From contig SOIK01000223.1 in assembly GCA_004377245.1 (NCBI GenBank), forward strand, positions 1-14,637: a stretch of 14,637 nt of DNA. The letters are read 5' to 3'. The notes beneath the pieces were generated by a model. That model made no database searches, was not told where the DNA came from, and worked only from the letters and a program-made list of their open reading frames with translations. Below, in pieces: positions 1-14,637 of the stretch. The DNA is from Sulfurovum sp. (GTDB lineage: Bacteria; Campylobacterota; Campylobacteria; Campylobacterales; Sulfurovaceae). The number at the start of each line of letters is the position of its first letter. Positions within the stretch are counted from its first letter, which is position 1. The translations under genes were made by a program, and so were the position numbers.

Positions 1-1
1 A

Positions 2-1839: not shown

Positions 1840-1865
1840 GGGATTCTACCTATCAACTCAACTCT

Positions 1866-2018
1866 CGTTCCCAAATTGTATTTGGGAATGCGCCCTGACT
1901 GCAAGGAGGAAGTGCCCTTGGGGTGCATATGAAAGTTCATTATGCAGTATGTATTTTTTTAGAAGTTCCCTTTATTTATTATGTTGATGTATGGATTCCC
2001 AAACACAGTTTGGGAACC
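1866..2018. repeat. REPIN-like inverted pair of REP palindromes between convergent genes
   Basis: This non-coding gap (1840-2033) separates two convergent genes. It holds two related perfect palindromes. The first is TTCCCAAAT (1868-1876), TGT, ATTTGGGAA (1880-1888). The second is TTCCCAAAC (1996-2004), ACA, GTTTGGGAA (2008-2016). The loops TGT and ACA are reverse complements and the innermost pair changes from T-A to C-G, so the second copy is the first in opposite orientation with a compensatory change. The flanks also match when inverted (AACT a few bases outside each). This is the architecture of a REPIN or BIME, which RAYT (Y1 transposase) proteins mobilise elsewhere in the genome. The hairpins may also act as a bidirectional terminator. 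No transposase gene is nearby. The ~100 bp between the palindromes shows nothing else I can name. Confidence 0.7.
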
Positions 2019-2033
2019 AGTTAAGAGTTAATG

Positions 2034-4640
2034 CTATTTATTAATAATATGAGCAGGAGATTCAATCGTACGTTTTAAAAACTGTAGTGGCATAAGAAGT
2101 ATATCTTGTGCTGCACTTGTCTTTACTTTTGGTTTATCTAGAGTCCCAGAGATTTTCAATCCAACTGTCATACTTTTGTCTTTGCCCATCAAAATATAAC
2201 CTAACAGAGGAAGATTTCCAACAAATTTTCCCAGTTCTCTAGCTGTCTGTATGGCAAGATTCATTTTAATGGTTTTTGTCTTGATATTTACTTCTCCCTT
2301 ACCAACGATCGTTGCAGAACCCCCTTTAATATAAACAGAGTCAAAAATTACTTTATCTCCTATCCTTCTATATTCAACAACTCCCTCTTGTATCTTAAAT
2401 CCTTTTTTTGAAAAACCTGGATTTTGTAAAGTGGCTAAAGCTGGTATGGTATTCATAAATGCCAAAGTATTGTTGTAAGCTTTAAAGTCACTCATTACCC
2501 CACCCTCAACAATTATCTTCCCTTTCATTACTTTATCTGGATTGCCAGATATTTTAATTGTATAGCGTCCGTTTTTCAAACCCTTAAAATCGATAAGAGG
2601 ATGCAAAAATTTATCTTTCATGCGTAAAGCTTGCATGGAAAACAGTTTTCCTTTTTTATTGAACTTTACGATATCTCCATCTAAACTTCCTATAGCGTTA
2701 ATATCACCATTCGCTTTTACCTCTACATCATAGCTATCTGTTACAAGGGTATGTTTATCATATCTTAGTTTACTATTTTCTCCTAAAATCACTAATCTTT
2801 TTATATAACTCTTTTTTGCTTCACTTTTTTGTGCTTCACTTTTTTTAATTTTTTCCCTTGAAGATAAAAATTTTTTAAGATCTATATTTAGATTTTTAAG
2901 TTTTATACGTGATTTATCTGTATTGAAATGGAAACGCTTGTCAAAAGCATAAAAGTCTACACCATTTTTTGTGACCTCCCCACTACAGGGTACTCTTGTA
3001 TGACACACATTGTCTTTCTCATAGAAGAAACATGATCTTCTATGAAGTTTTCCCTTAAAGGTATAGGTCTTAAAGTCTTTAGTAGTAATATCAAGATTTC
3101 CTCCATCTATCTGTATACCAAGATTTTTCAGATAAGGTTTTATCTTCTCTATTTTTGCTACCTGTATCAACATCTCTTTAGGGCGATTCACTATCTTCAA
3201 CTTCAATGTTGGTATATCAACTACAATATTTTTACTATAATCCAAAGTCAATGGCAATAGTTTGTTTTTAATCACAAAGAATTTCTCTTCTTCCCCTCCT
3301 ATACTAATCTGCTTCGCATCAAAGATAAGATCAACTTTTTTTTCTTTTAGATCTATCTTTCCATTTGCTCTACCTGCATACCAGCTCTCTTTTAGATCAA
3401 TATCCTTAAGAGTGATAAATCCTTTGTCAAACTGTACATTTCCTTTAAGGACAGGTAGTCTTGTCTTGTTGATATAGAGATCTCCCTTCCCTAGATCAAC
3501 ATTGACAAATACGGAAGTTTTTTTAGTAGATTCCTTTAACGGTATATCTATCTTCACATTCACTTTAGCCATACTACCTTTTTGTGTAACAGGTATCTGT
3601 AATTTATACGCTTTAAGTATCTCTTGCACTACACTATCGATAACACTTTTAATATGAAGATCAAGTTTAAGTATCGTAGGTTTTTCTCCTACCAAATCTG
3701 TAATAGCCACTTTACTTCCAGCTAAACTTCTTTCTTTATACGTAGGATTTTTCAAATCAAAATAGAGCCCACCTTCTTTATAGGTCAAGATAACACTTTC
3801 TGCCAAAACTGGTGACAAGTTCTCTTTATAGTGAATTTTTACATCTTCAAAAAGTACATTTCCTTTGAGTGCATCAAAATCCATCTTAAAGCCACCATCC
3901 TCAAGCGATCCTCTTCCTATTAAAGAGTATAACCTATATCTTTTTGCCTGAACTTTTTCAACGATCCAACTTTTTATAGACTCTTTCAGTGGAAATTTTT
4001 CTATAAGTGTTTTTAAATCCGTAAACTCTTCACTATTAAGTATAAAGTCTATTGTATTTTTCTCTTTGCTTGCTTTAAATTTCCCCTTGATATTATAAGC
4101 ATCAAACGTACCTTTCGTCTCCAACCTGTTACGCTTTGGATAATAAACAAGTTCTCCCTTTATATCAATATTATCCTTTTTCAGATGCAACATAGAGACA
4201 TCTGCGATAAATTTTTGCCCTTCTCTTTGTATATTTCCAGCAATCGCATAATCATCACTGGTAATATAAAGTATATCATCTGCAAAAATAATGTTTAACT
4301 CATTGTTTTGAAAGTGGATTTTTTCTAACTCTATATAATCAAAAAAGGTAAAAAGATATTTGATATTGTCAAACGTTTCATCTAAATTATCAAACGAAGG
4401 TTTAGCTTTACTTTGAGGAATAACTATATTATGTGCTTTAAGTGTGAGTTTTTTATCGAGTTTGATGTATAATTCATCTATCTTGTAGTGACCAAAAGTA
4501 AGGTTCTCTGCATGTATACCTACTTTTAGCCAATAGAAAAAAGCCACAAAAAGGATAACCAAAAAGATGAGTGTATTACGCAATACCACATGGAGAACAT
4601 GGATAGTATGGGCAGAAAACATCGCACTGGTTTTTATCAT
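2034..4640 (-). CDS. AsmA/YhdP-like membrane-anchored envelope protein (868 aa)
   Basis: Large protein with one N-terminal membrane segment (about residues 20-40, TLIFLVILFVAFFYWLKVGI) followed by over 800 residues rich in short alternating beta strands and Asp-Leu/Lys patterns. The C-terminal ~170 residues (GRYTIKISGNPDKVMKGKIIVEGG onward, with NTIPALATLQNPGFSKKGF and GSATIVGKGEVN) match the AsmA-like C-terminal / DUF3971 region of YhdP-type proteins. In Gram-negative bacteria these are long bridge-like proteins linked to phospholipid movement to the outer membrane; that role here is inferred. A Lys/Ser/Glu-rich insertion (KKSEAQKSEAKKS) sits near the middle. ATG at 4640 is chosen because AAAAGG lies 8 nt upstream on the minus strand. 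The start overlaps the divergent mltG start by 74 bp. The alternative GTG (4589) or TTG (4583) would still overlap. Confidence 0.8.
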   Translation of the reverse strand: MIKTSAMFSAHTIHVLHVVLRNTLIFLVILFVAFFYWLKVGIHAENLTFGHYKIDELYIKLDKKLTLKAHNIVIPQSKAKPSFDNLDETFDNIKYLFTFFDYIELEKIHFQNNELNIIFADDILYITSDDYAIAGNIQREGQKFIADVSMLHLKKDNIDIKGELVYYPKRNRLETKGTFDAYNIKGKFKASKEKNTIDFILNSEEFTDLKTLIEKFPLKESIKSWIVEKVQAKRYRLYSLIGRGSLEDGGFKMDFDALKGNVLFEDVKIHYKENLSPVLAESVILTYKEGGLYFDLKNPTYKERSLAGSKVAITDLVGEKPTILKLDLHIKSVIDSVVQEILKAYKLQIPVTQKGSMAKVNVKIDIPLKESTKKTSVFVNVDLGKGDLYINKTRLPVLKGNVQFDKGFITLKDIDLKESWYAGRANGKIDLKEKKVDLIFDAKQISIGGEEEKFFVIKNKLLPLTLDYSKNIVVDIPTLKLKIVNRPKEMLIQVAKIEKIKPYLKNLGIQIDGGNLDITTKDFKTYTFKGKLHRRSCFFYEKDNVCHTRVPCSGEVTKNGVDFYAFDKRFHFNTDKSRIKLKNLNIDLKKFLSSREKIKKSEAQKSEAKKSYIKRLVILGENSKLRYDKHTLVTDSYDVEVKANGDINAIGSLDGDIVKFNKKGKLFSMQALRMKDKFLHPLIDFKGLKNGRYTIKISGNPDKVMKGKIIVEGGVMSDFKAYNNTLAFMNTIPALATLQNPGFSKKGFKIQEGVVEYRRIGDKVIFDSVYIKGGSATIVGKGEVNIKTKTIKMNLAIQTARELGKFVGNLPLLGYILMGKDKSMTVGLKISGTLDKPKVKTSAAQDILLMPLQFLKRTIESPAHIINK

Positions 4641-5520
4641 CTCTTTCGCCTTTTATACTACACTACCCATCAAAACGACACAAACACTCTTTGTGCCTCA
4701 AGGCTCTATAGGAAACATTATATCACAGCTGACTAAAAAAGGCTACGCATTAAGTAAGATCGACACCTATATACTCAGACTTATAGGCACACCCAAAAGT
4801 GGATGGATCTATATAGGCAAAAATGAACTCAATCGTATCGACTTTCTCTATAAACTCACAAATGCAAAAGCGATGATACACAAGGTCACACTTATCCCGG
4901 GAGAAACTTCTGAACTCTTTTTTGATACTCTCTCACAAAAGTTACAATTAGACAAAACTAAACTTCAAAAATATTACCAAGAGTTCTCCTTCTACCCTGA
5001 AGCAGGTATCTATGCCGATACCTACCATGTTCCTTATGGCATAAAAGAGAAACATCTCATGCATTTTCTCATAAGAGAATCAGAAAAAAAATATAAGAAA
5101 ATTTCAGAAAAGATCTATGGGAACTACAGTCAAAAACAGTGGCAAAAAGTACTGATCATCGCTTCTATCATTCAAAAAGAAGCAGCAAATGATCAAGAGA
5201 TGCCATTGGTCTCTTCTGTTATCTATAACCGACTTAAAAAGGGTATGCGATTACAGATGGATGGGACACTGAATTATGGTAAATACTCACATATCAAAGT
5301 CACCCCAGAGCGCATACGCACTGATGAAAGTACCTTCAACACCTACAAACACAAAGGACTACCATCCTCTCCCATAGGAGCAGTCAGCCTCTCTGCCATC
5401 ACTGCCGCCATAAAACCTGCAAAAACAGACTACCTCTACTTTATGAAAAATGATAAAGGTGTACATGACTTTGCAAAAACTTTTAAAAAGCATCGTAAGA
5501 ACATTCAGAAAGCTAAATAA
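4567..5520 (+). CDS. mltG: Endolytic murein transglycosylase MltG
   Basis: MltG cleaves nascent glycan strands at the inner membrane and is thought to set strand length during peptidoglycan synthesis. The 317-residue protein has an N-terminal membrane anchor (about residues 14-34), a LysM-like region, then the YceG/MltG catalytic domain. The signature IIASIIQKEAANDQEMPLVSSVIYNRL (about 197-222) contains the catalytic glutamate, E205, and is followed by MRLQMDGTLNYG and the conserved TYKHKGLPSSPIGAVS. ATG at 4567 has AAGGA 11 nt upstream and there is no other Met before the membrane segment, so the start is fairly secure even though it lies inside the divergent YhdP-like gene. Length and motifs agree with Campylobacterota MltG. 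The regulatory signals must lie inside the neighbour's coding region. Confidence 0.95.
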   Translation: MSVLRNTTWRTWIVWAENIALVFIISFAFYTTLPIKTTQTLFVPQGSIGNIISQLTKKGYALSKIDTYILRLIGTPKSGWIYIGKNELNRIDFLYKLTNAKAMIHKVTLIPGETSELFFDTLSQKLQLDKTKLQKYYQEFSFYPEAGIYADTYHVPYGIKEKHLMHFLIRESEKKYKKISEKIYGNYSQKQWQKVLIIASIIQKEAANDQEMPLVSSVIYNRLKKGMRLQMDGTLNYGKYSHIKVTPERIRTDESTFNTYKHKGLPSSPIGAVSLSAITAAIKPAKTDYLYFMKNDKGVHDFAKTFKKHRKNIQKAK

Positions 5521-5550
5521 TTAACTCAACTTTCACACATGCAATTCCAC

Positions 5551-5576
5551 GTCATTCTCAGCTTGACTGGGAATCT
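5551..5576. repeat. dRS3-like imperfect palindrome (ATTC..GGGAAT)
   Basis: ATTCTCAG (5554-5561) and CTGGGAAT (5567-5574) form an 8-bp stem with one wobble pair around the loop CTTGA. The flanks GTC and CT fit the widespread GTCATTCCC...GGGAATCT repeat pattern, of which the neisserial dRS3 repeat is the best-known example. It lies between the convergent mltG and small membrane protein genes and supplies the last codons and stop of the latter. It may also terminate transcription, although no T run follows. A single degenerate copy gives only moderate confidence that it is a true repeat. Confidence 0.45.
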
Positions 5577-5857
5577 ACAAAGGTTTTGTATCTAGCTTGA
5601 TTAGAGAGTATCAAATCTGCATAGACTTTTTTAGCCATCACATACTGAATAGTATCTTCCAAATCTTTATAAGAGGTATTTTTCTTCATCAACATACAAC
5701 TCTCTAGCACTTCAGCATTTGCAAACTTTACTACCGTACACAACTCATTTATCTGCATAACAGCATCAAGTGCAACATCTTTGTTTTTCTTTGACAATAT
5801 ATAGTAAAGCGTAGTAATAATGCCGCAAATCAAATAAAAGAAATTTTGTTGACCCAA
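5558..5857 (-). CDS. Small single-pass membrane protein of unknown function
   Basis: I do not recognise this 99-residue protein. It begins with a hydrophobic stretch (about residues 7-22, FYLICGIITTLYYILS) followed by a charged, probably helical domain with two cysteines (C40, C54). The likely start is TTG at 5857, two bases after the stop of the upstream metallophosphoesterase, suggesting one operon and translational coupling. The first ATG in frame (5758) would remove the membrane segment. No clear ribosome binding site precedes the TTG, so the start is uncertain. The last codons (VDSQSS and stop) come from a repeat-like palindrome, so the original C-terminus may have been different. It is probably a real gene because of its operon position and membrane-anchor architecture. 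Confidence 0.55.
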   Translation of the reverse strand: MGQQNFFYLICGIITTLYYILSKKNKDVALDAVMQINELCTVVKFANAEVLESCMLMKKNTSYKDLEDTIQYVMAKKVYADLILSNQARYKTFVDSQSS

Positions 5858-5859
5858 AG

Positions 5860-6960
5860 TTAAATAATATACGCTATCTCAGCCTGTGAATTAAGTCTCA
5901 TGGGCGGTCCCCAAAACCCGATACCACTGTTGACATAGATATAAGAGCCATGTGAGAGTTGGTGCAATCCTTTAACGTAGGGTTGCTGTAGTTTCACCAG
6001 ATGGTTAAACGGCCAAATTTGACCTCCATGGGTATGGCCACTGAGAATGAGATCAGGTTTGTATGCTTTGAGTTCCTCTATAAACTTTGGTTGATGTGCC
6101 AAGAGTATAGTTTGGTAGTTAGTATTACACTCTTGGAATGCCTTATCGATATTAGGTTCAAGTAGATTTACACGATAACCAAAAAGATCAGTAACACCTA
6201 CAATATTGAGTTTCAGCTCATCGATAGTTACACTCTCATTGAGCAGAAACTTTATATTGGTTTCTTTCATAAAAGCGATGATCTCCAAAGGATCGTGGAA
6301 ATATTCATGATTACCAAGGATATAGTAGATTCCGTATTTTGATCGGATATGGGTGAGTTCAAGAACAGCCTCTTTAACTGCCTCTATTTTTGTATCAATA
6401 AGATCACCGGTAATGACAACGATATCGGCTTTGAGAGAATTGATCTTTTCTACAGAATGTTTGACAAATTCTCTATCGATCAATCCCCCTATATGCAAGT
6501 CACTGATCTGTACGATCGAAAAGTCAAAAAGATTTGGTTTTACTACATTTATAACGGGTTCTTTCATACCTTCATATACCGCTGTACTGACATAACCCGC
6601 AGAGAGAGCAAGCATCATACCATCTCCACTTTTTTTGATAAAATCCCGTTTTGACTGATCCACATTTTTCAGTGTTTTGTGAAAGAGATGGATAAATTCA
6701 TGAACGACCAGATACAAAAGAAGGACAAATGAAATACCTATAGAAATAGAAAAAAGATAATAAATGGAGGCAAATAGTAACTCTGTGTATCGGCCCAAAA
6801 CATAGAAGATATTTGAAATGAAGTTGAGTCCCAAGAGTATGGTTAAAACTTTTTTTGTTTTATGTGAGACTAGTAATTTTTTGATCACTCTAGAGTAAAA
6901 AAGATAGTGCAGCGCAAAGAAAAAGAGAAGAAAAACAGAAAAGAATAGAAAAGTTCTCAT
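5860..6960 (-). CDS. Membrane-anchored calcineurin-like metallophosphoesterase (YkuE-like)
   Basis: 366 residues. The N-terminal third has about three membrane segments (roughly 3-22, 38-56, 64-88) and another hydrophobic stretch at 112-128, just after KRDFIKK, which resembles a worn Tat motif. The catalytic domain starts near residue 145 and carries the full dinuclear-metal set: D154 and H156 (QISDLHIGG), D186 (TGDLID), N217 and H218 (LGNHEYF), H289 (LAHQPK), H309 and H311 (SGHTHGGQIWP). Characterised YkuE-like relatives hydrolyse phosphoesters or UDP-diacylglucosamine (LpxG type), but the substrate cannot be read from sequence. AAGGAGGAG lies 5 nt before ATG 6960, a very strong ribosome binding site. 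The small membrane protein gene follows after 2 nt. Confidence 0.9.
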   Translation of the reverse strand: MRTFLFFSVFLLFFFALHYLFYSRVIKKLLVSHKTKKVLTILLGLNFISNIFYVLGRYTELLFASIYYLFSISIGISFVLLLYLVVHEFIHLFHKTLKNVDQSKRDFIKKSGDGMMLALSAGYVSTAVYEGMKEPVINVVKPNLFDFSIVQISDLHIGGLIDREFVKHSVEKINSLKADIVVITGDLIDTKIEAVKEAVLELTHIRSKYGIYYILGNHEYFHDPLEIIAFMKETNIKFLLNESVTIDELKLNIVGVTDLFGYRVNLLEPNIDKAFQECNTNYQTILLAHQPKFIEELKAYKPDLILSGHTHGGQIWPFNHLVKLQQPYVKGLHQLSHGSYIYVNSGIGFWGPPMRLNSQAEIAYII

Positions 6961-7028
6961 TAATACTCCTCCTTCTTAAGATGTTGTATCTGATAACTCT
7001 AAAACGTTATAACAATATAACATAAATA

Positions 7029-7919
7029 CTAGAGCAATTGTTTCAAATCATTCAAATCAAACAAAAGTACATTCTCTTCTTTTGTTTGCATAAGTTCATT
7101 GGAAAACCCATCTTTGGAAAAAAGTGCATACACATCTACTTTCATACCTGACTGTAAAGCTTTGGCTTTGAGTTTGGTAAGTTCATTTTTACATACTTTT
7201 CGATCTTTATATTTACACTCACCCAAGATGAGTTTTTTATCACTTGTGATGGCTAAGATGTCGAACTCACTGTGTTGGTTCCAGTAGCTACCACTACTTA
7301 GCAGTGGTGTAGATGATTCATAATGCTTTACAAGTAGTGCATCACAGAGTTGCTCGTAGACCAAAGAGCGTAAGCGCTCATAGTTTTTCTGAAAATTCTC
7401 TAAAAATGCACTGCCATCACCTTGAACTAACTCTTTTCTATAATACGTCACAAAACCAAACCAAAAACGCATAAAGGGGTCCACAAAACGAAGTTTATCT
7501 TGTATGCGGTAAGAACGAAGCTCTTTTTTGAGTTTATGTTTGGGATGCAAACGTAATGGGCTTTCCCTTGTAGGTTCCAGAGAAAGAATGTTGAGGGCTA
7601 TCAATTCTTTTATGATCTCTTCACCTGCTGATTCACTCAATCGTGCCTTCTTCAGTACCGAGTAAAATTTACCATCACCTCTAGCCACAGCCATAAGCAC
7701 TTCCCGGTAAGGAGTCTCCAGCAGATAAGAGGGAGAAACAAGGGTTTGGAATTTGGAGAAGTTTTGCACAAAGTTAGACTCAACCATAGAAAAAACATCA
7801 TCAAAATAATCTAATGCTATACTCTCCTCTACTCCTCCCAAAATAGAAAAATACTCAATAGCCTGTTCTAACTCTAAGTAAGAGAAGTGATGAAAAAATG
7901 TTTTAAATGATGTTCTAAT
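7029..7919 (-). CDS. DUF234 protein (orphan C-terminal half of an archaeal-type ATPase), unusual start
   Basis: DUF234 is normally the C-terminal part of archaeal-type STAND ATPases. Here it stands alone, without a Walker A/B ATPase domain. It has a winged-helix-like middle (GKFYSVLKKARLSESAGEEIIKELIALNIL), the block RFVDPFMRFWFGFV, and a C-terminal nuclease-like core. Counting from the proposed ATT start, that core has D220, then E234 and K236 in ILGECKY, a PD-(D/E)XK-type arrangement. The first usable canonical codon is TTG at 7841 (270 aa), but the frame stays open upstream and encodes a plausible family N-terminus (FFHHFSYLELEQAIEYFSILGG). The only initiation-like codon there is ATT at 7919, 6 nt after AAAGG, giving 296 aa. 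No ATG, GTG or TTG exists before the stop at 7929-7931. Function unknown. Confidence 0.7.
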   Translation of the reverse strand: MRTSFKTFFHHFSYLELEQAIEYFSILGGVEESIALDYFDDVFSMVESNFVQNFSKFQTLVSPSYLLETPYREVLMAVARGDGKFYSVLKKARLSESAGEEIIKELIALNILSLEPTRESPLRLHPKHKLKKELRSYRIQDKLRFVDPFMRFWFGFVTYYRKELVQGDGSAFLENFQKNYERLRSLVYEQLCDALLVKHYESSTPLLSSGSYWNQHSEFDILAITSDKKLILGECKYKDRKVCKNELTKLKAKALQSGMKVDVYALFSKDGFSNELMQTKEENVLLFDLNDLKQLL

Positions 7920-7931
7920 GCTTGACCTTTA

Positions 7932-8026
7932 ATTAATGTTGAATAATTTTAACATACTTTTGTTACAATAACTTTAGTTAATCATGATGTTTTTTTCATC
8001 AATTATTTGTATATAAAGTATTTTAC
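7932..8026. promoter_or_regulatory. Divergent intergenic region between DUF234 gene and NtrC-like gene
   Basis: This AT-rich gap must carry promoters for both divergent genes. On the plus strand TATAAA (8012-8017) is a good -10 box, but it would put the transcript start only about 2-3 nt before ATG 8027, a near-leaderless message. An alternative -10 is TACAAT (7964-7969), giving a leader of about 50 nt that includes a small hairpin (TGATG 7985-7989, CATCA 7997-8001). The NtrC-like gene has no clear Shine-Dalgarno sequence. TTAATCA (7979-7985) equals one half of the dyads found before both amtB genes, but the other half is missing. Confidence 0.35.
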
Positions 8027-8761
8027 ATGGAACAATTTTTCACCAACTCAGAGCAAGTACAAAATATCATTAAAGGGTTCAACCTCACTAAAACCCTCTT
8101 TGTCTCTTCTATCATCATAGGTGAAGCAAATATAGGGAAAAAGACTCTGGCACGTTACCTTTTCCCTCATGCACATTTAGTCTCTGGAAAAGAGCAGGAA
8201 AAAGTAGAAGCCGCATTGGAAGAGTATGATGAACTCATTATCACAGATTTTGAAAAACTCAGCAACCAGGAGTCACTTGATCTGGACAACAAACGTATCA
8301 TCGCTACAGCAAACTATGTAGGGAACAAGCAAACCATAGATAACCTCTTTGCCTTTATCTATACCATGCCTTCTCTTAAAGAGCGACCTGATGACACAGC
8401 ATACATCAGAGACATTTTCATCAAAGAGGCACAATCCAACCTTATGCTAGAAGATAAAGTCTTTGCTGTGGATGACATACATATAAACCTTAGTGACAAT
8501 AGTAAAACTCTTAAAAAATCCATCTACCAACATTTGATGAATCACTCAATGGGCGAGAAAGATATCCAAGAAGCTATCTACCACTACATTTTGCAAGATT
8601 TGGAGGGTAACAATGGATACAAAGAGTATCTTGGACTTTATGAAAAACCTCTCATAGAAGCTGGGCTAAAAAAGTTTGGCTCACAACTACAACTCTCCCA
8701 AGTTTTAGGCATCAACAGAAATACCCTTAGGAAGAAGATACGTGAACACAATATTGATTAG
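8027..8761 (+). CDS. Reduced NtrC-like regulator: AAA+ remnant with Fis-type HTH
   Basis: 244 residues that read as a shrunken NtrC-type protein. There is no receiver domain. GEANIGKKTLA (32-42) corresponds to the NtrC Walker A (GESGTGKE-like), DELIITDFEKL (68-78) to a Walker B-like strand, RIIATAN (90-96) to sensor I, and MPSLKERPDD (114-123) to the PLRERREDI motif. Only about 30 residues separate Walker A from the Walker B-like strand, and GAFTGA, needed to contact sigma-54, is absent. The C-terminus (about 216-241, GSQLQLSQVLGINRNTLRKKI) is a well-preserved Fis-family DNA-binding helix-turn-helix. It probably acts as a nitrogen-related DNA-binding regulator without sigma-54 activity. This is inferred from homology to NtrC and the downstream ammonium genes. 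The start is ATG 8027, with a weak ribosome binding site. Confidence 0.78.
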   Translation: MEQFFTNSEQVQNIIKGFNLTKTLFVSSIIIGEANIGKKTLARYLFPHAHLVSGKEQEKVEAALEEYDELIITDFEKLSNQESLDLDNKRIIATANYVGNKQTIDNLFAFIYTMPSLKERPDDTAYIRDIFIKEAQSNLMLEDKVFAVDDIHINLSDNSKTLKKSIYQHLMNHSMGEKDIQEAIYHYILQDLEGNNGYKEYLGLYEKPLIEAGLKKFGSQLQLSQVLGINRNTLRKKIREHNID

Positions 8762-8890
8762 AACGCTTTTTGAGCAAAGCCCAAAAAACTACGCTAACGC
8801 TGTATTGTCTTACGATTCGGCATTTAGTGCCTCACTTGCACTGCATTTTAGATGCTTGTCAGCAGACAGCTCACGCGACTGGTCGCTCAT
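8759..8890 (+). repeat. Structured intergenic repeat, copy A (NtrC-like/NtrB-like gap)
   Basis: Begins with TAGAACG (8759-8765), whose TAG is the stop codon of the upstream gene. Hairpin 1: TTTTTG (8767-8772) pairs with CAAAAA (8782-8787) around A-GC-AAA-GC-C. The linker CTACGCTAACGCT (8789-8801) follows. Then come two hairpins with the same loop: GGCA-TTTAG-TGCC (8819-8831) and GCAT-TTTAG-ATGC (8843-8855). Next is GTC-AGCA-GAC (8858-8867), then GCTCAC and the terminal hairpin GCGAC-TG-GTCGC (8875-8886). Positions 8837-8860 are identical (24 of 24) to 11098-11121 in copy B. It lies inside the presumed transcript, before the NtrB-like ribosome binding site. Confidence 0.75.
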
Positions 8891-8913
8891 TAAACTCTTA
8901 TACGGTGAGCAAA

Positions 8914-9606
8914 ATGAATATTAATTTTGAAGCATTTATAGAGTGGGACAACAGTCCTTTTATACTCTTTAACTCTGAAAGAAAAATACTCTATTTGAAC
9001 AATGTTGCTGAAATTTTATTTGGCTATGTATCAAAACAAGAACTTTATGACATTGCTCTGGCTTATGCACCGCAAACCTTTGGATACAAAACCACAACTC
9101 TTTCTTTAAATTATGACTCTTTTAACTTCTATGCTATTACAGTAGGATACGAGAATGAAGATCAGATCTCTATACGCTTTTACAATGCACCACGTGCAAA
9201 ACCATCATCTCCATTAGAGACAGATAAACTTATAATGACAGATATCAATATACTGCTTGAAGCAAATATTGCACTTTTTAAGACCAAAAACACTAACCCT
9301 CTTCAACTCTTAGCTGATCAGGACTTACCCTCTTTTAAGATCGATCAAAACAAATTTTCTAAACTACTTCGTAAAACCTTGAATGCTTTTAGGGCTTCTG
9401 ACTCCATTGGTATCACACTTAAACTACTTATAGGTGAGCATGTCATCATAGCAGATAAAAAAGAGTCTATAGTACAACTTTCAGTAGAAGCCAATGGTCG
9501 GTATCATGATGCGGATGATGAGATAAAGTCTCTAGCAAGCCAAAGTCATATTTCTTGTTTACTCAAAGAACATACTATTAAATTAGAGATACCCCTCATC
9601 CAATAA
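8914..9606 (+). CDS. Reduced NtrB-like protein: PAS domain with histidine-kinase-core remnant
   Basis: 230 residues from ATG 8914, which has GGTGAG 4 nt upstream. An earlier in-frame start would translate the structured repeat and is rejected. Residues about 8-90 look like a PAS sensor domain (SPFILFNSERKILYLNNVAEILFGYVSKQELYD). The C-terminal part (about 108-230) has the layout of a kinase core: an NtrB N-box echo in KLLRKTLNAFRASD, then strands ending KLEIPLI. However, there is no phospho-acceptor histidine in an H-E/D-x-x-N/T context and no DxGxG or GxGxG ATP-lid motif, so phosphorylation activity is unlikely. Following the NtrC-like gene, it is probably its partner and signals by direct contact, an inference. 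The 152-nt gap between the genes holds repeat copy A. Confidence 0.72.
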   Translation: MNINFEAFIEWDNSPFILFNSERKILYLNNVAEILFGYVSKQELYDIALAYAPQTFGYKTTTLSLNYDSFNFYAITVGYENEDQISIRFYNAPRAKPSSPLETDKLIMTDINILLEANIALFKTKNTNPLQLLADQDLPSFKIDQNKFSKLLRKTLNAFRASDSIGITLKLLIGEHVIIADKKESIVQLSVEANGRYHDADDEIKSLASQSHISCLLKEHTIKLEIPLIQ

Positions 9607-9632
9607 CCTAAAATATAGTATAAACTTCATAA

Positions 9633-9649
9633 TGATTAAAAATTAATCA
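9633..9649. promoter_or_regulatory. Candidate operator dyad upstream of amtB1
   Basis: Perfect inverted repeat TGATTAA-AAA-TTAATCA, 68 nt before the amtB1 ATG, in the 111-nt gap after the NtrB-like gene. TATAAA (9659-9664) 9 nt downstream is a possible -10 box, so the dyad would cover the -35 region. The same arms and spacing recur before amtB2. It is 17 bp long with TG...CA ends, the geometry of enterobacterial NtrC sites (TGCAC-N7-GTGCA). No sigma-54 GG-N10-GC promoter is visible in this gap. A ribosome binding site AAAGGA (9706-9711) precedes amtB1. Confidence 0.6.
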
Positions 9650-9717
9650 ATCATCTACTATAAAAAATTTTAATACATGTTAATATTGTTTTGTAAAATT
9701 ATTTTAAAGGAATTTGA

Positions 9718-10977
9718 ATGAAGTTAAAATTTTTATCTCTCATGGCAACACTCTTGCCGGTAGCCGCAATGGCGGAAGACACACTCGACACAGGTGATAC
9801 AGCATGGATGCTTGTAGCCACAGCATTTGTTATGCTGATGACACCTGCAGGTTTAGCGCTATTTTATGGTGGTATGACAAGAAGTAAGAACGTACTCAAC
9901 ACTATGGGGATGAGTCTTATTGCATTTGCAGTAGGTACTCTTGTATGGGTTGTTGCTGGTTACAGTATCGCATTTGGTGCAGGTGACTTTTTTGGTACAG
10001 GTAAGATCATGCTTGATGGTATTACAGATAAATCACTTACGGGAACTATCCCTGAGCTTCTTTTTGTAGCATTCCAAGGTACTTTTGCTGCTATCGCAGT
10101 TGCGATCGCATCTGGATCAATGATCGAGAGAGTAAAATTCTCAACATTTACTATCTTTGTTGCACTTTGGATCTTAGCAGTATATGCACCAGTAACACAC
10201 TGGGCATGGGGTGGTGGGGAAACACTGAACTTCGGTGAGATGGACTTTGCCGGTGGTACAGTTGTACACATCAATGCCGGTGTAGCTGGTTTTGTAGTTG
10301 CCATGCTTCTAGGTAAAAGAAAAGGATATGGTACAACTGCGATGAAACCTTTCTCTCCAGTGCTTTCTGTACTTGGTGCTACACTACTATGGTTTGGTTG
10401 GTTCGGATTTAATGCCGGTTCTGAAGTAGCTGCTGATGGTGTTGCGGGGAATGCATTCCTTATCACTAATGTTGCTGCGGCTCTTGGTGTTATCGGTTGG
10501 TTAGTTGCTGAGTATATCGTGTACAAAAAAGCAACACTCATCGGTGGCGCTTCTGGTGCGGTTGCCGGTCTTATTGCTATTACACCTGCTTCTGGTTCTG
10601 CTGGGGTTTCTGGTGCACTTATCATCGGTCTTGTTGGTGGTATCTTAGGATTTATCGCTGTCGCTAAACTTAAAAAGATGTTTAAAGTAGATGACAGTCT
10701 TGATGCATTCTGGATACACGGTGTTGTAGGTATCTGGGGTAGTATCGCTACGGCTATCTTCATCGCTCCATATCTTATGGCAGATGATTACAGTATGGGT
10801 ACACAACTTGTTGCTCAATTTAAAGCAATTGGTTTAACCATTGTTTATAGTGCTATCGTAACAGCCATCGTTTACTTTATCGCTGCTGCCATTACAGGCG
10901 GAGGAAGAGTAGATGAAGAGACTGAGCACGTTGGTCTAGACGAAGCAACTCACGGTGAAAAAGGTATAAATTTATAA
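9718..10977 (+). CDS. amtB: Ammonium transporter AmtB (signal-peptide subtype)
   Basis: 419-residue ammonium channel of the inner membrane, probably a trimer. A cleavable signal peptide (about residues 1-19, ending AAMA-ED) precedes the 11-helix core, as in E. coli AmtB. The Phe gate region is FQGTFAAIA (F119, F123). HWAWGG (W162) lies at the external ammonium site. D176 and H184 stand in MDFAGGTVVHINAG and H334 in FWIHGVVGIWG, so the twin-His pore and the conserved Asp are intact. WFGWFGFNAGS (225-235) is the Amt signature. The C-terminal tail GLDEATHGE is the cytoplasmic segment that PII proteins regulate. It forms an amtB-glnK module with the next gene, separated by 254 nt. That is unusually wide and is filled by repeat copy B and a leader hairpin. 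Confidence 0.97.
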   Translation: MKLKFLSLMATLLPVAAMAEDTLDTGDTAWMLVATAFVMLMTPAGLALFYGGMTRSKNVLNTMGMSLIAFAVGTLVWVVAGYSIAFGAGDFFGTGKIMLDGITDKSLTGTIPELLFVAFQGTFAAIAVAIASGSMIERVKFSTFTIFVALWILAVYAPVTHWAWGGGETLNFGEMDFAGGTVVHINAGVAGFVVAMLLGKRKGYGTTAMKPFSPVLSVLGATLLWFGWFGFNAGSEVAADGVAGNAFLITNVAAALGVIGWLVAEYIVYKKATLIGGASGAVAGLIAITPASGSAGVSGALIIGLVGGILGFIAVAKLKKMFKVDDSLDAFWIHGVVGIWGSIATAIFIAPYLMADDYSMGTQLVAQFKAIGLTIVYSAIVTAIVYFIAAAITGGGRVDEETEHVGLDEATHGEKGINL

Positions 10978-10978
10978 A

Positions 10979-11162
10979 TAGAACGTGTATAGGGCAAAGC
11001 CCTACTTCTGTCAAAATTTAAAAACGTGCATTAAAGCACCTTTTAAAAATTTGATTGCTAACGCTGAGTTTTACGACTCAGCGTTTAGCGCTTCGCATGC
11101 ACTGCATTTTAGATGCTTGTCCTCAGCGGAAGGCTCATGCAACTTGTTGCATTTTGGGCTTT
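10979..11162 (+). repeat. Structured intergenic repeat, copy B (amtB1/glnK1 gap)
   Basis: Begins with TAGAACG (10979-10985), 1 nt after the amtB1 stop. Hairpin 1: TAGGGC-AAA-GCCCTA (10990-11004). An extra AT-rich hairpin (about 11012-11054, inner stem GTGC/GCAC) is inserted here only. GCTAACGCT (11057-11065) matches the copy A linker and can also pair with AGCGTTTAGC (11080-11089). Then AGCG-TTTAG-CGCT (11080-11092), GCAT-TTTAG-ATGC (11104-11116), TCC-TCAGC-GGA (11120-11130), and the terminal hairpin ATGCAAC-TT-GTTGCAT (11137-11152). GGGCTTT (11156-11162) complements AAAGCCC of hairpin 1 (10996-11002). This is the longest copy. Confidence 0.75.
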
Positions 11163-11174
11163 AACCAAAAGTGA

Positions 11175-11573
<399 letters not shown>

Positions 11574-11582
11574 CAGATATTT

Positions 11583-11618
11583 GCACAAGGGATTCTCTCC
11601 CTTGATGCATATTTTCTA
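11583..11618 (+). terminator. Probable intrinsic terminator after glnK1
   Basis: CAAGGGA (11586-11592) pairs with TCCCTTG (11598-11604) around the loop TTCTC. The stem can extend by GCA/TGC with a bulged A. A short T-rich run (ATATTTTC) follows. It lies 12 nt after the glnK1 stop and separates the first amtB-glnK module from the promoter region of the second. Confidence 0.6.
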
Positions 11619-11623
11619 CTATA

Positions 11624-11640
11624 TGATTAATATTTAATCA
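11624..11640. promoter_or_regulatory. Candidate operator dyad upstream of amtB2
   Basis: Perfect inverted repeat TGATTAA-TAT-TTAATCA, 118 nt before the amtB2 ATG. Arms and spacing are identical to the dyad before amtB1; only the three central bases differ. A further single arm TGATTAA lies at about 11677-11683. TATTTT (11651-11656), 10 nt downstream, could be a -10 box at the same relative position as at amtB1, but it is weak. The rest of the gap to 11758 is AT-rich, with TAGGA (11747-11751) as the amtB2 ribosome binding site. Confidence 0.58.
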
Positions 11641-11758
11641 ACTTTAATTTTATTTTTTAAATTATTTACTCCATACTGATTAATTTTATAACAACATATC
11701 CTTTCAATCCTTTCCAATAACAGATACACTAATACATTCAAAATATTAGGAATTAAAT

Positions 11759-12931
11759 ATGGAAATGAATTACGTCATAGATACTTTCTTTGCTATCTTT
11801 GCAATGACCCTCATCATCTTCATGGTGCCAGGTTTTGCCATGCTCGAAGCGGGATTAGTACGAACTAAAAATGTCACCTCTGTACTCACAGTAAATGTCA
11901 TGATCTATGCTGTAGCCTCTATGTCTTTTCTACTCATAGGGTATGAGTATGCTTTTGGAAGCTGGGATCATCAAGATGGTGTGAGCAAATGGGCATTCTT
12001 TATGTTCCAAATGGCATTTGTCGGTAAAGTAGTCAACATCATGAGTGGTGGGGTAAGTGAACGGTCTCGTATCTTACCTTTGGCCATATTTACTGTTATC
12101 GTTGGGGCATTTATCTACCCAACCATTGTCAACCTCACATGGGGTGCCAATTTTTTATCAGGAACAGCACTAGATATTTCAGGGCTCTCTGACCTTGCTG
12201 GTTCTACTGTTATCCACTCTACTGGTGGTTGGGCATTGGTTGCAGCTATACTCATTATGGGACCTAGACGAGGTAGATACAAAAATGGTAAAGTCCGTGT
12301 TATCCCTGCATCTAACATTCCTTTAGTAACATTGGGTGCTTTATTACTCTGGATAGGTTGGTTTGGATTTAATGGTGGAAGTGTCGGATCTATCTCTTCA
12401 AAAGACCATGCAGATGCTGTAGCACTCACTATTATGAATACCAATACTGCTGGGCTCTCTGGTGCCATTTCTGCTTGGTTACTTACCTACTTTAGATACA
12501 AAAAGTTCGATATCACCATGATACTCAATGGTGCACTAGGTGGACTCGTAGCAGTAACAGCAGGACCAGACCAATACGATATCCATACACCTATTTTAAT
12601 TGGTGCTATTGGTGGAGCATTGGTAGTCTGGTGTGTACCGCTTTTTGATAAACTCAAGCTAGATGACCCAGTGGGTGCCTTATCGGTACACTTAGTCAAT
12701 GGTATCTGGGGTACATTGGCAGTAGGTATTTTTATAGCAGATGTAAGCATTTTGTCTCAATTAAAAGGTATACTTATAGTAGGAGCTATCGTTTTCCCAC
12801 TCTCTTGGATTACGATATACACTATTAACAAAATCTTTGTACTACGTGCAGGGGATGATGAACAACTTGAGGGGATTGATGCTACAGAGTGTGGTATGGA
12901 ATCATACCCTGAATTTAAACGTAGTATATAG
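11759..12931 (+). CDS. amtB: Ammonium transporter, second subtype (no signal peptide)
   Basis: 390-residue Amt channel that lacks a signal peptide: the first helix starts at residue 5. The C-terminus EGIDATECGMESYPEF resembles the GIDxxEHGxEAYPEF tail of cyanobacterial-type Amt proteins rather than the first AmtB. Functional residues are kept: Phe gate FQMAF (F83, F87), W128 in NLTWGAN, D145 and H153 in DLAGSTVIHSTGG, WIGWFGFNGGS (198-208), and H311 in SVHLVNGIWG. In the tail, the usual His of E-H-G is Cys (ECG), which may alter PII contact. The two transporters are clearly not a recent duplication, unlike their PII partners. glnK2 follows after 197 nt containing repeat copy C and a second structured element. 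Different affinities or pairings are plausible but not readable from sequence. Confidence 0.95.
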   Translation: MEMNYVIDTFFAIFAMTLIIFMVPGFAMLEAGLVRTKNVTSVLTVNVMIYAVASMSFLLIGYEYAFGSWDHQDGVSKWAFFMFQMAFVGKVVNIMSGGVSERSRILPLAIFTVIVGAFIYPTIVNLTWGANFLSGTALDISGLSDLAGSTVIHSTGGWALVAAILIMGPRRGRYKNGKVRVIPASNIPLVTLGALLLWIGWFGFNGGSVGSISSKDHADAVALTIMNTNTAGLSGAISAWLLTYFRYKKFDITMILNGALGGLVAVTAGPDQYDIHTPILIGAIGGALVVWCVPLFDKLKLDDPVGALSVHLVNGIWGTLAVGIFIADVSILSQLKGILIVGAIVFPLSWITIYTINKIFVLRAGDDEQLEGIDATECGMESYPEFKRSI

Positions 12932-13010
12932 GACGTCATCTGAACAAAGTCCAGATGACTACGCTGACGCTAAGTCAACTTCAGCAGTTGGCTCACGCAA
13001 CTTATTGCGT
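12929..13010 (+). repeat. Structured intergenic repeat, copy C (amtB2/glnK2 gap)
   Basis: Begins with TAGGACG (12929-12935), whose TAG is the amtB2 stop codon. Hairpin 1: TCATCTG (12936-12942) pairs with CAGATGA (12952-12958) around A-AC-AAA-GT-C, the same core layout as copy A. The linker CTACGCTGACGCT (12959-12971) differs from copy A by one base. AGTCAACT (12973-12980) pairs with AGTTGGCT (12986-12993) around the loop TCAGC, the loop also seen in copy B. The terminal hairpin is ACGCAA-CTTA-TTGCGT (12995-13010). The TTTAG-loop hairpins of copies A and B are absent, so this is the shortest copy. Confidence 0.75.
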
Positions 13011-13025
13011 TTAAATAAATTATAT

Positions 13026-13095
13026 CAGGGGACATTGGTTGCACCTAAAGGTATTTCCTTTGGTCACTTTCGAAGAAAGTAAAGCTATGTCCCTG
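13026..13095 (+). other. Three-way-junction-like structured element before glnK2
   Basis: Outer stem: CAGGGGACAT (13026-13035) pairs with ATGTCCCTG (13087-13095) with one bulged G. Inside are two hairpins: ACCTAAAGG (13043-13051) with CCTTTGGT (13057-13064), one bulged T, loop TATTT; and ACTTTC (13066-13071) with GAAAGT (13075-13080), loop GAA. Together they make a 70-nt closed three-way junction ending 33 nt before the glnK2 ATG. It could be a regulatory leader, a small RNA or a dispersed repeat. I do not recognise it as a known riboswitch or tRNA. Confidence 0.55.
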
Positions 13096-13098
13096 TGA

Positions 13099-13470
<372 letters not shown>

Positions 13471-13503
13471 TAAGTACTAAGTGTTAAGCGGGTAGTGCCA
13501 AGA

Positions 13504-13518
13504 GAGGTTTTCTACCTC
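13504..13518. terminator. Possible weak bidirectional terminator between glnK2 and yigZ
   Basis: GAGGT (13504-13508) pairs with ACCTC (13514-13518) around TTTCT in the 41-nt gap between convergent genes, overlapping the last codon of yigZ. An outer pairing of GTAGT with ACTAC may extend the structure. No clear T tract follows in either direction, so this is tentative. Confidence 0.3.
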
Positions 13519-14078
13519 CTATCTACTACTTGCTCCTTGAACTTAGTTATTTTTTCTTCACTTCCTTTAATCTTCCACTCCACACTATTTACTCCAAAAT
13601 CACGTTTATATTGCACTAAACCTAATTGTTTGAGCATATAAAGTATTTTATCAACATCACTATAGGAAGTTTCAAATATATACTTTATTTCTTTTGCATA
13701 AGGAACCAACTTGGCCTCTTTGAGTACATCTTTTACAGCCAAAGCATAGGCTCTTGCCATACCTCCAGTACCAAGCTTAATACCCCCAAAATAACGTACT
13801 ATAAGCACAGCACAATTGATCAACGCTTCACCTCGAAGTACATTTAAAGCAGGGACACCTGCACAGCCTTTAGGTTCACCATCATCTGAGCTGTTTTCGA
13901 CTACCTGTTCAAATTCATTGAGGTATCTTAATGCGTAGACTACATGATTTGCTTTGGGATGCTCTGCTTTGAGTTTGTTCTGTAGTCCCTCATACTCTGA
14001 CATCGGTACAAGATGGGTGATAAATTTTGAACGATTGACTTCTGTTGTAGCACTATAAGCTTTTTCAATGGTGTTCAT
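13512..14078 (-). CDS. yigZ: YigZ/IMPACT family protein
   Basis: 188 residues. The N-terminal UPF0029/Impact domain is clear: SKFITHLVP near residue 17, SSDDGEPKGCAGVPALNVL (63-81) and VRYFGGIKLGTGGMARAYA (94-112), the hallmark motifs of the family. The C-terminal ~60 residues form the small DUF1949-like ferredoxin-fold domain (ETSYSDVDKILYMLKQLG). Bacterial YigZ has a suggested role near translation or proline peptide metabolism, but its biochemical function is unsettled. The start at ATG 14078 overlaps the upstream VanZ-like gene by 14 nt, suggesting co-transcription with it and hemH. Length is slightly shorter than the ~204 residues of E. coli YigZ. Confidence 0.92.
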   Translation of the reverse strand: MNTIEKAYSATTEVNRSKFITHLVPMSEYEGLQNKLKAEHPKANHVVYALRYLNEFEQVVENSSDDGEPKGCAGVPALNVLRGEALINCAVLIVRYFGGIKLGTGGMARAYALAVKDVLKEAKLVPYAKEIKYIFETSYSDVDKILYMLKQLGLVQYKRDFGVNSVEWKIKGSEEKITKFKEQVVDRR

Positions 14079-14424
14079 ATTTTATCAATCTTTTTATAAA
14101 AGGATAAAACAACAATCCAATCCCAATCCCAATAACATCTGCTACAACATCCAATACTTCCGCACTGCGATTGGGTGTAAAAAATTGAGAAAACTCTATA
14201 AAGACCGCGTAAATAAATAGTAGTAAGAAAGTTTGAAACAATGTTATAGAATAAGCAAATCTAAGTAGTAGAGTCAACACTGCAAAAGCAATAAAGTGTA
14301 TACTTTTATCCGACAAAGAACCTATTTTCGGTGCCATATCCTGTGGTATTACTGCAAATATATAACTTCCAATCAGAGCTAACCAAAAAAAAGCCCTAAA
14401 AACAAATGGATAGTTAAACTGCAT
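14065..14424 (-). CDS. VanZ-like small membrane protein
   Basis: 119 residues from ATG 14424. Four membrane segments are evident (about 8-26, 43-57, 61-77, 92-110). Family marks include DKSIHFIAFAVLT (39-51), with the Asp-Lys and His of the VanZ-like superfamily, and EFSQFFTPNRSAEVLDVVADVIGIGIG (77-103), with the typical E...Q...R...D..D spacing. The start at 14424 overlaps the hemH stop by 11 nt. A longer start at 14466 would add 14 residues but overlap hemH by 53 nt with no ribosome binding site, so it is not preferred. VanZ itself gives low-level teicoplanin resistance; the function of this housekeeping-type relative is unknown. Confidence 0.8.
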   Translation of the reverse strand: MQFNYPFVFRAFFWLALIGSYIFAVIPQDMAPKIGSLSDKSIHFIAFAVLTLLLRFAYSITLFQTFLLLFIYAVFIEFSQFFTPNRSAEVLDVVADVIGIGIGLLFYPFIKRLIKYEHH

Positions 14425-14637
14425 TAACTTTATCCACAATGAACTTAGTAAACTTGTTACTATCATTCATACATGATGCAACGATGTAATCTTCATATTT
14501 AATCTTCTGGGCTATCTCTCTATGTTCAATATCCAGTTCAAATACCGTCTCTGAATTATCAAGTGTAAATGCAAGTGGATAGATAAGCACTTTTCTATGT
14601 GTAGGGTTACGCAATACATCCACAAGATTAGGTTCAA
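14414..14637 (-). CDS. hemH: Ferrochelatase HemH, C-terminal part (5' end outside window)
   Basis: Ferrochelatase inserts ferrous iron into protoporphyrin IX, the last step of haem synthesis in this pathway. The visible last ~74 residues, running open to the window edge, include EPNLVDVLRNPTHRKVLIYPLAF, then TLDNSETVFELDIEHREIA, which holds the conserved DNSET and E.D.E.R metal-site segment of the C-terminal domain, and a final ASCMNDSNKFTKFIVD. These match the C-terminus of Campylobacterota HemH. The catalytic His of the N-terminal half is outside the window. The gene is probably the first visible member of a minus-strand run hemH - VanZ-like - yigZ with overlapping reading frames. Confidence 0.88.
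   Translation of the reverse strand, partial: EPNLVDVLRNPTHRKVLIYPLAFTLDNSETVFELDIEHREIAQKIKYEDYIVASCMNDSNKFTKFIVDKVNAV

Follow-up and report, generated by a model that had tools for sequence, protein, structure and literature searches.

The nitrogen gene block of a Sulfurovum sp. (assembly GCA_004377245.1, contig SOIK01000223.1, positions 1 to 14,637 of the forward strand; the whole 14,637-nt stretch is called the window) carries three copies of a structured intergenic repeat. We found that this repeat is a real, widespread and apparently mobile element that is not related to nitrogen: its copies are dispersed, their number varies between congeners, sites filled in one genome are empty in others, and the fold is conserved by covarying bases. 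Taken as a whole, the element is probably a non-autonomous mobile DNA of approximately 85–90 bp, which lies between genes and reaches tens of copies in many members of one Campylobacterota order, and whose complementary strand would be recognized by an enzyme as folded single-stranded DNA. An initial annotation of the window had described three copies with covarying stems and proposed that they might be a processing signal, a PII- or nitrogen-linked RNA element or a hairpin-based mobile repeat. The three copies lie where it placed them and the hairpin arms it quoted are found in the sequence; the last of its proposals is the one supported by the dispersed copies and the filled and empty sites.

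Copy Number and Host Range

The three window copies are real, but they do not form a set of their own: the family is genome-wide. A 19-base pattern of the end hairpin, allowing up to 3 mismatches, gave 15 matches in the genome of the window and none in a reversed control. We then built a covariance model, R1, from nine compact copies of this genome, which is 58% complete, and found 36 matches at E ≤ 1 and 35 at E ≤ 0.001, the nine training copies included; 3 of the 36 are inside the window and 33 elsewhere. The genome search that the initial annotation had named as a check thus returned further copies.

Over the 41 genomes of the own-and-relatives set, R1 matched 28, with 0 to 80 matches per genome; the genome G011 has 80, the congener G009 (99% complete) has none, and neither has G002. 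Among 397 genomes sampled across the phylum, for each of which at most 10 candidates were scored, 82 from 14 of 68 genera matched R1 at E ≤ 0.001. All 82 are labeled as belonging to the same order or nearer, kinship being known for these positives and not for the 295 unlisted negatives. A sequence pattern was found in at least 115 stretches of named genomes, the hosts among the matches listed being Sulfurovum, Sulfurimonas, Sulfuricurvum, Sulfurospirillum, Hydrogenimonas and others, and in one stretch of a viral contig. The viral copy (L412, 5679–5792) sits between divergent portal and protease genes, and phages can therefore carry the element. Head-to-tail arrays were present in two genomes, one with a period of 90, 4.7 copies and 100% matches (L166, 15803–16223) and the other with a period of 92, 4.1 copies and 94% matches (L168, 2554–2927). 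The copies of the latter array differ in mosaic fashion.

A Conserved Fold with Deep Covariation

The conserved unit is 84–92 nt long and contains three hairpins and two further helices, in the order hairpin 1, helix A, hairpin 2, a pairing of the hairpin 2 loop with the flank of its stem, and hairpin 3. Covariation was measured by counting pairs in each alignment and comparing the counts with shuffles and with slid partners, in place of R-scape. Alignment A5 has 70 distinct rows and 25 pairs; standard pairs made up 91.7% of its cells, and 22 of the 25 pairs had changed on both sides. The doubly changed cells numbered 450, where the shuffles gave 149 and the slid partners no more than 102, and the score was 0.625, compared with 0.180 and at most 0.133, respectively. 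Doubly changed pairs were 14 of 22 in alignment A3 and 19 of 22 in A4. The larger alignment thus shows covariation far above both controls, in agreement with the earlier argument for a selected structure rather than a shared primary sequence.

Two short helices had gone unnoticed in the initial annotation. Helix A has the form RAC/GTY, and the loop AGC of hairpin 2 pairs with a GCT just 3′ of the hairpin 2 stem, giving a pseudoknot topology. R1 includes three helices, and rows pairing in those are consequently favored, but helix A and the loop pairing are outside the model; in A5 they were paired in 98.6% and 97.6%, respectively. The loop pairing varies between AGC/GCT, GGC/GCC, AAC/GTT and GAC/GTC. 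What had been described as stems of a "CAGC-type loop" mixes two things, a 4-bp stem around the loop TCAGC and the separate 3-bp AGC/GCT pairing. Hairpin 2 and the loop pairing may not be able to form together in the same molecule, since a single nucleotide would have to span the stem. The A3 columns 41 and 46 read C–G in 102, T–A in 58, C·A in 13 and C·C in 1 of 174 copies, T·G being absent; together with G40–C47, such a pair would make helix A another hairpin with its loop pairing to the flank. Another pseudoknot, between GCTGA of the linker and the loop TCAGC, was considered and found unsupported, position 41 being C or T and the G61 opposite it hardly varying.

Two copies in G011 (L180 and L187) have part of the hairpin 1 loop inverted, GGACTTTGTT replacing GAACAAAGTC, with the arms intact, the outcome expected from template switching between the arms. 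In another copy of the same genome (L430, contig 87), a different inverted-repeat stretch is nested at the place of hairpin 1, and the insertions within window copies 1 and 2 may have arisen in a similar manner.

Filled and Empty Sites in Related Genomes

The genes that flank copy 1 overlap in 6 of 6 relatives examined, and in the window the element separates them. At the site of copy 3, the amtB2–glnK2 gap could be measured in 19 other genomes; it is only 11–27 bp long in 15 of them, and an R1 match is found in 1 of the 19 (G004); gaps of 55, 81 and 160 bp in G011, G001 and G019 have no R1 match. The genome closest by AmtB2 identity (G017, 92%) runs ATATAG-TAAATTATA where the window holds copy 3.

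At the site of copy 2, the amtB1–glnK1 gap of G017 has no R1 match and contains a different hairpin, and copies occupy this gap in G020, G023 and, truncated, in G014. AmtB1 (window 9718–10977) is 92% identical between the window and G017 and only 54–56% identical to that of five other species at the same place, whereas AmtB2 is 85–90% identical to that of those same five. A gene replacement is likely, judging from these identities, and the common ancestry of the G020, G023 and G014 copies with copy 2 is therefore uncertain.

Similar comparisons were made for copies elsewhere in the genome of the window. Around C219:12641, the flanking genes overlap or abut in all three relatives aligned, and for the copies C219:9770, C98:1547 and C98:8096 two or more relatives each have a gap that is shorter by approximately 100–140 bp, as estimated from match coordinates, although the junctions in the alignments are untidy. 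In the nusG–rplK and rplJ–rplL gaps (L317 and L150), the element is antisense in a Sulfurimonas genome and sense in G013, a genome of the same genus as the window (the L7/L12 gene of L317 was named by eye), and the copies of the two genomes are probably independent insertions. Elements that flank a gene, as at these loci, were considered as well, but the intervening genes are nusG and those of ribosomal proteins.

The Folded Strand

The direction of the wobble mismatches and the position of a short tag bear on which strand folds. Since a further alignment, A6, was drawn by a pattern that fixes several bases, CTAC among them, tag and pair counts were also made for A4 and A5 alone. Of the 106 rows of A4 and A5 that were parsed, 87 have the motif CTAC directly 3′ of hairpin 1 on the plus strand, a count somewhat favored by the presence of the motif in R1; on the complement it reads GTAG 5′ of the hairpin. 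Hairpin 1 of A5 showed, on the top strand, 74 A·C mismatches vs. 3 G·U, split into 45 vs. 0 at the loop-adjacent pair, 19 vs. 1 at the foot pair and 10 vs. 2 at the remainder. Hairpin 3 had 5 A·C vs. 0 G·U, and the 13 C·A vs. 0 T·G at pair 41–46 have the same direction. As an A·C of the top strand is a G·T on the complement, the mismatches of hairpin 1 are tolerable as wobbles on the complementary strand. The idea that lack of wobbles implies a double-stranded palindrome was abandoned when hairpin 1 showed A·C above G·U. The strand signal is moderate, since loop-adjacent and foot mismatches may be unpaired positions, and it gives moderate support to a folded molecule that is a single strand of the sense complementary to that of the initial annotation.

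Under a simple open reading frame (ORF) rule, 208 copies were distributed as 76 sense and 54 antisense between codirectional genes, 21 between divergent genes and 16 between convergent genes, with 20 at edges and 21 overlapping ORFs left unclassed; the latter overlap an ORF of at least 75 amino acids by more than 40 nt. The occurrence of copies in both orientations makes DNA more likely than RNA as the folded molecule.

Inverted-Repeat Forms and the Search for a Mobilizing Enzyme

In G011, the core is also found within forms bounded by inverted repeats ATTAGASTTCTTGCA that come in few discrete sizes, and the same core sits inside two different families of terminal inverted repeats (TIRs). The two TIR patterns gave 57+51 matches vs. 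1+1 in the control and 47+48 vs. 4+2; in G019, a TIR pattern gave 13+13 vs. 0+2. The ATTAGASTTCTTGCA pattern was at control level in the core carriers G023 (3+3 vs. 2+3) and G014 (3+4 vs. 5+3). Equal 3-bp flanks, ATT or AAT, surrounded 18 of the 21 facing pairs of 100–300 bp in G011, compared with 9.5 expected, the count using all 95 listed rows and the expectation coming from re-dealing the right ends.

An autonomous partner was not seen for one of the G011 TIRs among the facing pairs listed, which measured 59–290 bp with one of 672 bp having unequal flanks, and none was seen by eye for the other among approximately 100 of its 108 places. PDDEXK_2 proteins, guessed at as the mobilizer, are encoded by 7 genes of G011, and a search of eight other genomes gave none. 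No TIR pair surrounds these genes, one apparent TIR match lies at a gene end, and a link to the element was not seen. A link to the REP-associated tyrosine transposases (RAYT) or IS200 was dropped after a Y1_Tnp search of 34 genomes and an R1 scan of 30 loci gave none. Loss of the enzyme, a distant enzyme or action in trans are possible explanations for the missing RAYT link.

Layout of the Window Copies

The block contains genes for two P-II proteins, two ammonium transporters and a Fis-type helix-turn-helix (HTH) protein, as well as a gene whose product matches neither Pfam nor NCBIfam. Copy 3 is the best R1 match (104.4 bits) and also one of the training copies; the matches of copies 1 and 2 extend over 8755–8894 (66.4 bits) and 11016–11158 (33 bits), respectively. 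Features of the three copies are given in Table 1.

Table 1. Positions of the three copies and their parts in the window
Feature	Position	Strand	Description
Copy 1	8762..8894	+	Ends approximate; internal insertion; between the Fis-type HTH gene and the next gene
Copy 1 hairpin 1	8767..8787	+	TTTTTG A GC AAA GC C CAAAAA
Copy 1 insertion, hairpin 2 loop	8811..8858	+	48 nt; a similar one in copy 2 and other copies of the same genome
Copy 1 hairpin 2 3′ part, loop AGC and partner GCT	8857..8872	+	
Copy 1 hairpin 3	8875..8886	+	GCGAC..GTCGC
Copy 2	10978..11158	+	Ends approximate; amtB1–glnK1 gap; two insertions
Copy 2 hairpin 1	10990..11004	+	TAGGGC AAA GCCCTA
Copy 2 hairpin insertion 3′ of hairpin 1	11009..11057	+	Similar modules in L015, L040 and L044
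Copy 2 helix A	11060..11070	+	AAC ... GTT; helix backed by A5 covariation
Copy 2 insertion, hairpin 2 loop	11073..11121	+	
Copy 2 hairpin 2 3′ part and loop pairing AGC/GCT	11122..11136	+	
Copy 2 hairpin 3	11137..11152	+	ATGCAAC..GTTGCAT
Copy 3	12932..13015	+	Compact form (84 nt); insertion in the amtB2–glnK2 gap
Copy 3 hairpin 1	12935..12959	+	
Copy 3 helix A	12966..12976	+	GAC GCTAA GTC; helix backed by A5 covariation
Copy 3 hairpin 2	12977..12989	+	AACT TCAGC AGTT
Copy 3 loop-to-flank pairing AGC/GCT	12983..12993	+	Helix backed by A5 covariation
Copy 3 hairpin 3	12995..13010	+	ACGCAA..TTGCGT

Copies 1 and 3 begin with a TAG that serves the preceding gene as its stop codon, and the TAG of copy 3 is also present in the empty site of G017. 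Compared with the folding of shuffled sequences, copies 3 and 2 had z scores of −3.63 and −4.12, respectively, and copy 1 one of −0.08, its hairpin 2 being split by the 48-nt insertion.

The block holds other repeats as well. A second, different long hairpin (CAGGGGACAT ... ATGTCCCTG) occupies 13026–13095, 3′ of copy 3 in the amtB2–glnK2 gap, and is missing from that gap in G017; a hairpin GCAGATGGACTCTGTTCATCTGC lies at 11183–11205 between copy 2 and glnK1. An inverted repeat with CTCTCGTTCCCA-type ends is found at window 1852–2032 and in L221 and L235. Similar repeats occupy the amtB1–glnK1 gap in two relatives, and another repeat family is therefore active.

Discussion

In the mechanism that we propose, the fold would be used as single-stranded DNA of the complementary strand, reading 5′-GTAG-hairpin 1-, as the strand signal moderately suggests. 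An HUH-type or other enzyme might recognize the fold of this strand in an exposed state, such as that of the lagging-strand template, and would cut and move the folded GTAG strand. Selection for copies that can be mobilized again would keep the arms complementary while their sequence drifts. In G011, the core also travels within the forms that have inverted repeats at their ends and equal flanks of 3 bp. Any consequences for host genes, for instance the parting at copy 1 of two genes that otherwise overlap, are probably by-products.

Several observations weigh against mobile single-stranded DNA. Among the sites, the flanks of copy 1 share only a diverged similarity of approximately 17 bp (by eye), and C219:9770 has no clean empty site in G017, which carries other sequence of similar length there. 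G020 and G023 hold a copy in the same amtB1–glnK1 gap as the window, and the Sulfurimonas genome and G013 hold theirs in the same ribosomal-operon gaps; given this repeated use, placement is not random. As for the fold, one covariation measure, the number of further pair types, did not rise above the shuffles, of which 406 of 500 for A5 and 237 of 500 for A3 were at least as high. The strand signal comes mostly from the loop-adjacent mismatch and the foot pair, the rest amounting to only 10 vs. 2, and contact 53–67 points in the opposite direction (T·G 44 vs. C·A 4 of 174), although we interpret this contact as unpaired, base 53 pairing with base 43. Helix A, hairpin 2 and the loop pairing are almost free of wobbles on either strand. 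For these we used 174 of 206 distinct copies, 32 being dropped for misfit to the pattern or fewer than three-quarters of the hairpin 2 pairs, and of 1,740 cells 1,716 were Watson–Crick, 6 G·U, 9 A·C and 9 others. Inverted-repeat ends and equal flanks were seen in the G011 forms, none at the window copies. Finally, the 30 Y1-transposase loci scanned, of 73 Y1 places in the 34 genomes searched for Y1_Tnp, contained 0 R1 copies, and no Y1_Tnp match at E ≤ 1e−5 was found in G003 (99% complete, 23 copies) or G020 (100%, 16 copies).

A structured RNA gene or a cis-acting RNA (a processing signal, a 3′-UTR stabilizer or an attenuator), copied around the genome for its usefulness, would explain the very strong covariation with pseudoknot topology, the many sense copies whose start coincides with the stop codon of the gene before them, the compensatory differences of the G020 and G023 amtB1–glnK1 copies from the window copy, and the tolerance of top-strand T·G at contact 53–67 (44 vs. 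4 C·A). We nevertheless regard this as unlikely. Between codirectional genes, 54 of 130 copies are antisense, and the gaps are without the element in most relatives examined. The copies lie in the gaps of many genes throughout the genome, sense and antisense alike, which tells against the processing signal of the initial annotation. On the top strand, G·U makes up 6 of 1,722 standard pairs, compared with 43 of 524 (8.2%, with one A·C) in 44 tRNAs from the fetched loci, where tRNA rows were kept only if their stems paired well and element rows only if hairpin 2 did. Rfam gave no match at the window copies (E up to 5) and none above the cut-off at the copies in seven other loci (E up to 1), the sole match touching a copy being a sub-threshold tmRNA-type one in L353, beside a true tmRNA gene. 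The narrower proposal of a nitrogen- or PII-linked RNA controlling amtB and glnK seems most improbable. It was suggested by three successive copies in the nitrogen block and agrees with the amtB1–glnK1 copies of G020, G023 and, truncated, G014. Yet 33 of 36 matches in the genome are outside the window, copies occur in both orientations and also in the nusG–rplK and rplJ–rplL gaps, and the nitrogen gaps of relatives are mostly without the element, the amtB2–glnK2 gap having a match in 1 of 19 genomes and measuring just 11–27 bp in 15.

One could also take the inverted-repeat ends of G011 as the mobility signal of a classical miniature inverted-repeat transposable element (MITE) moved as a DNA transposon, with the hairpin core as its cargo or internal enhancer. 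TIR matches far above control in G011 and G019, the few discrete sizes and the equal ATT/AAT flanks in 18 of 21 pairs fit this well, but one core within two different TIR families does not, nor do the cores elsewhere that lack these TIRs, with ATTAGASTTCTTGCA at control level in G023 and G014. We consider such a MITE quite unlikely. A wider claim is that the element represents a new class of mobile elements, with folded single-stranded DNA of two consecutive pseudoknot-like modules, an order-wide range, a non-RAYT enzyme and a complementarity selected for movement and not for RNA; we put it forward as a possibility, and a rather doubtful one.

In Sulfurovum, Sulfurimonas, Sulfuricurvum and Sulfurospirillum, much structured sequence between genes is explained by the element. 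Strong covariation alone is no proof of a functional RNA, and the amount and direction of wobble mismatches also matter. If the reading as single-stranded DNA is true, the hundreds of drifted substrates of one DNA-processing enzyme make up a natural experiment, and the covariation map would show the contacts needed by the enzyme or the fold.

Comparison with Known Systems

An order-wide composite with extra helices was not found in the literature searched, which had most subscription journals outside it and does not imply absence from print. BOX elements of Streptococcus pneumoniae, from a different phylum, are, like the element, modular with optional internal blocks. Integron attC sites are single long imperfect hairpins with core sites beside the integron integrase, and the three-hairpin layout found here does not fit them.

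The closest parallels are repetitive extragenic palindromic (REP) sequences of the GTAG type, which are short intergenic palindromes in tens of copies, with varying stems of preserved complementarity and with GTAG on one strand immediately 5′ of a hairpin with an internal mismatch. The 36 dispersed intergenic matches in the genome of the window and the tag in 87 of 106 rows agree with this. GTAG or GTGG precedes the REP hairpin by 0–2 nt and the "long" type has a bulge (PMC6006769); hairpin 1 fits these rules by tag and bulge, and a further rule in the same source, on stem G+C, looks by eye not to hold. GT pairing is often seen in GTAG repeats, and Sulfurovum sp. NBC37-1 is reported to have repeats of both the GTAG and the CGTC type (Di Nocera 2013, PMC3733652). 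Hairpin 1 may thus be partly known already from those Sulfurovum families. REPs differ from the element in being single hairpins of 21–65 nt, whereas here 84–92 nt contain three hairpins and two covarying helices of 3 bp and extend over many genera of one order; a RAYT/TnpA_REP (Y1) gene flanked by the repeat was also not found in the 30 Y1 loci.

The CGTC repeats are likewise intergenic, and GACG, CGTC on the other strand, flanks hairpin 1 in part of our copies; no dedicated transposase is reported for them either, and they are described as single hairpins of 8–9 bp with a CCA-like tail, unlike the element (PMC3733652). The first base of the RACG motif also varies here between AACG, GACG, TACG and CACG.

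MITEs share with the element the non-autonomous nature, the lack of coding sequence, the dispersal and the filled and empty sites, and the G011 forms add inverted-repeat ends and equal 3-bp flanks. The window copies differ in that no inverted-repeat ends were seen, the conserved part being an internal core of several hairpins. The ends of IS200/IS605 elements are recognized as folded single-stranded DNA and have a short guide tract on the 5′ side of the hairpin foot (PMC6006769). The complement of the element similarly has a 3-nt tract 5′ of hairpin 2 that pairs with the loop of that hairpin, though guide tracts pair with cleavage sites there and with the hairpin's own loop here, where no transposase gene is linked. 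Among these systems, the element is REP- and MITE-like with an unusually rich covarying fold.

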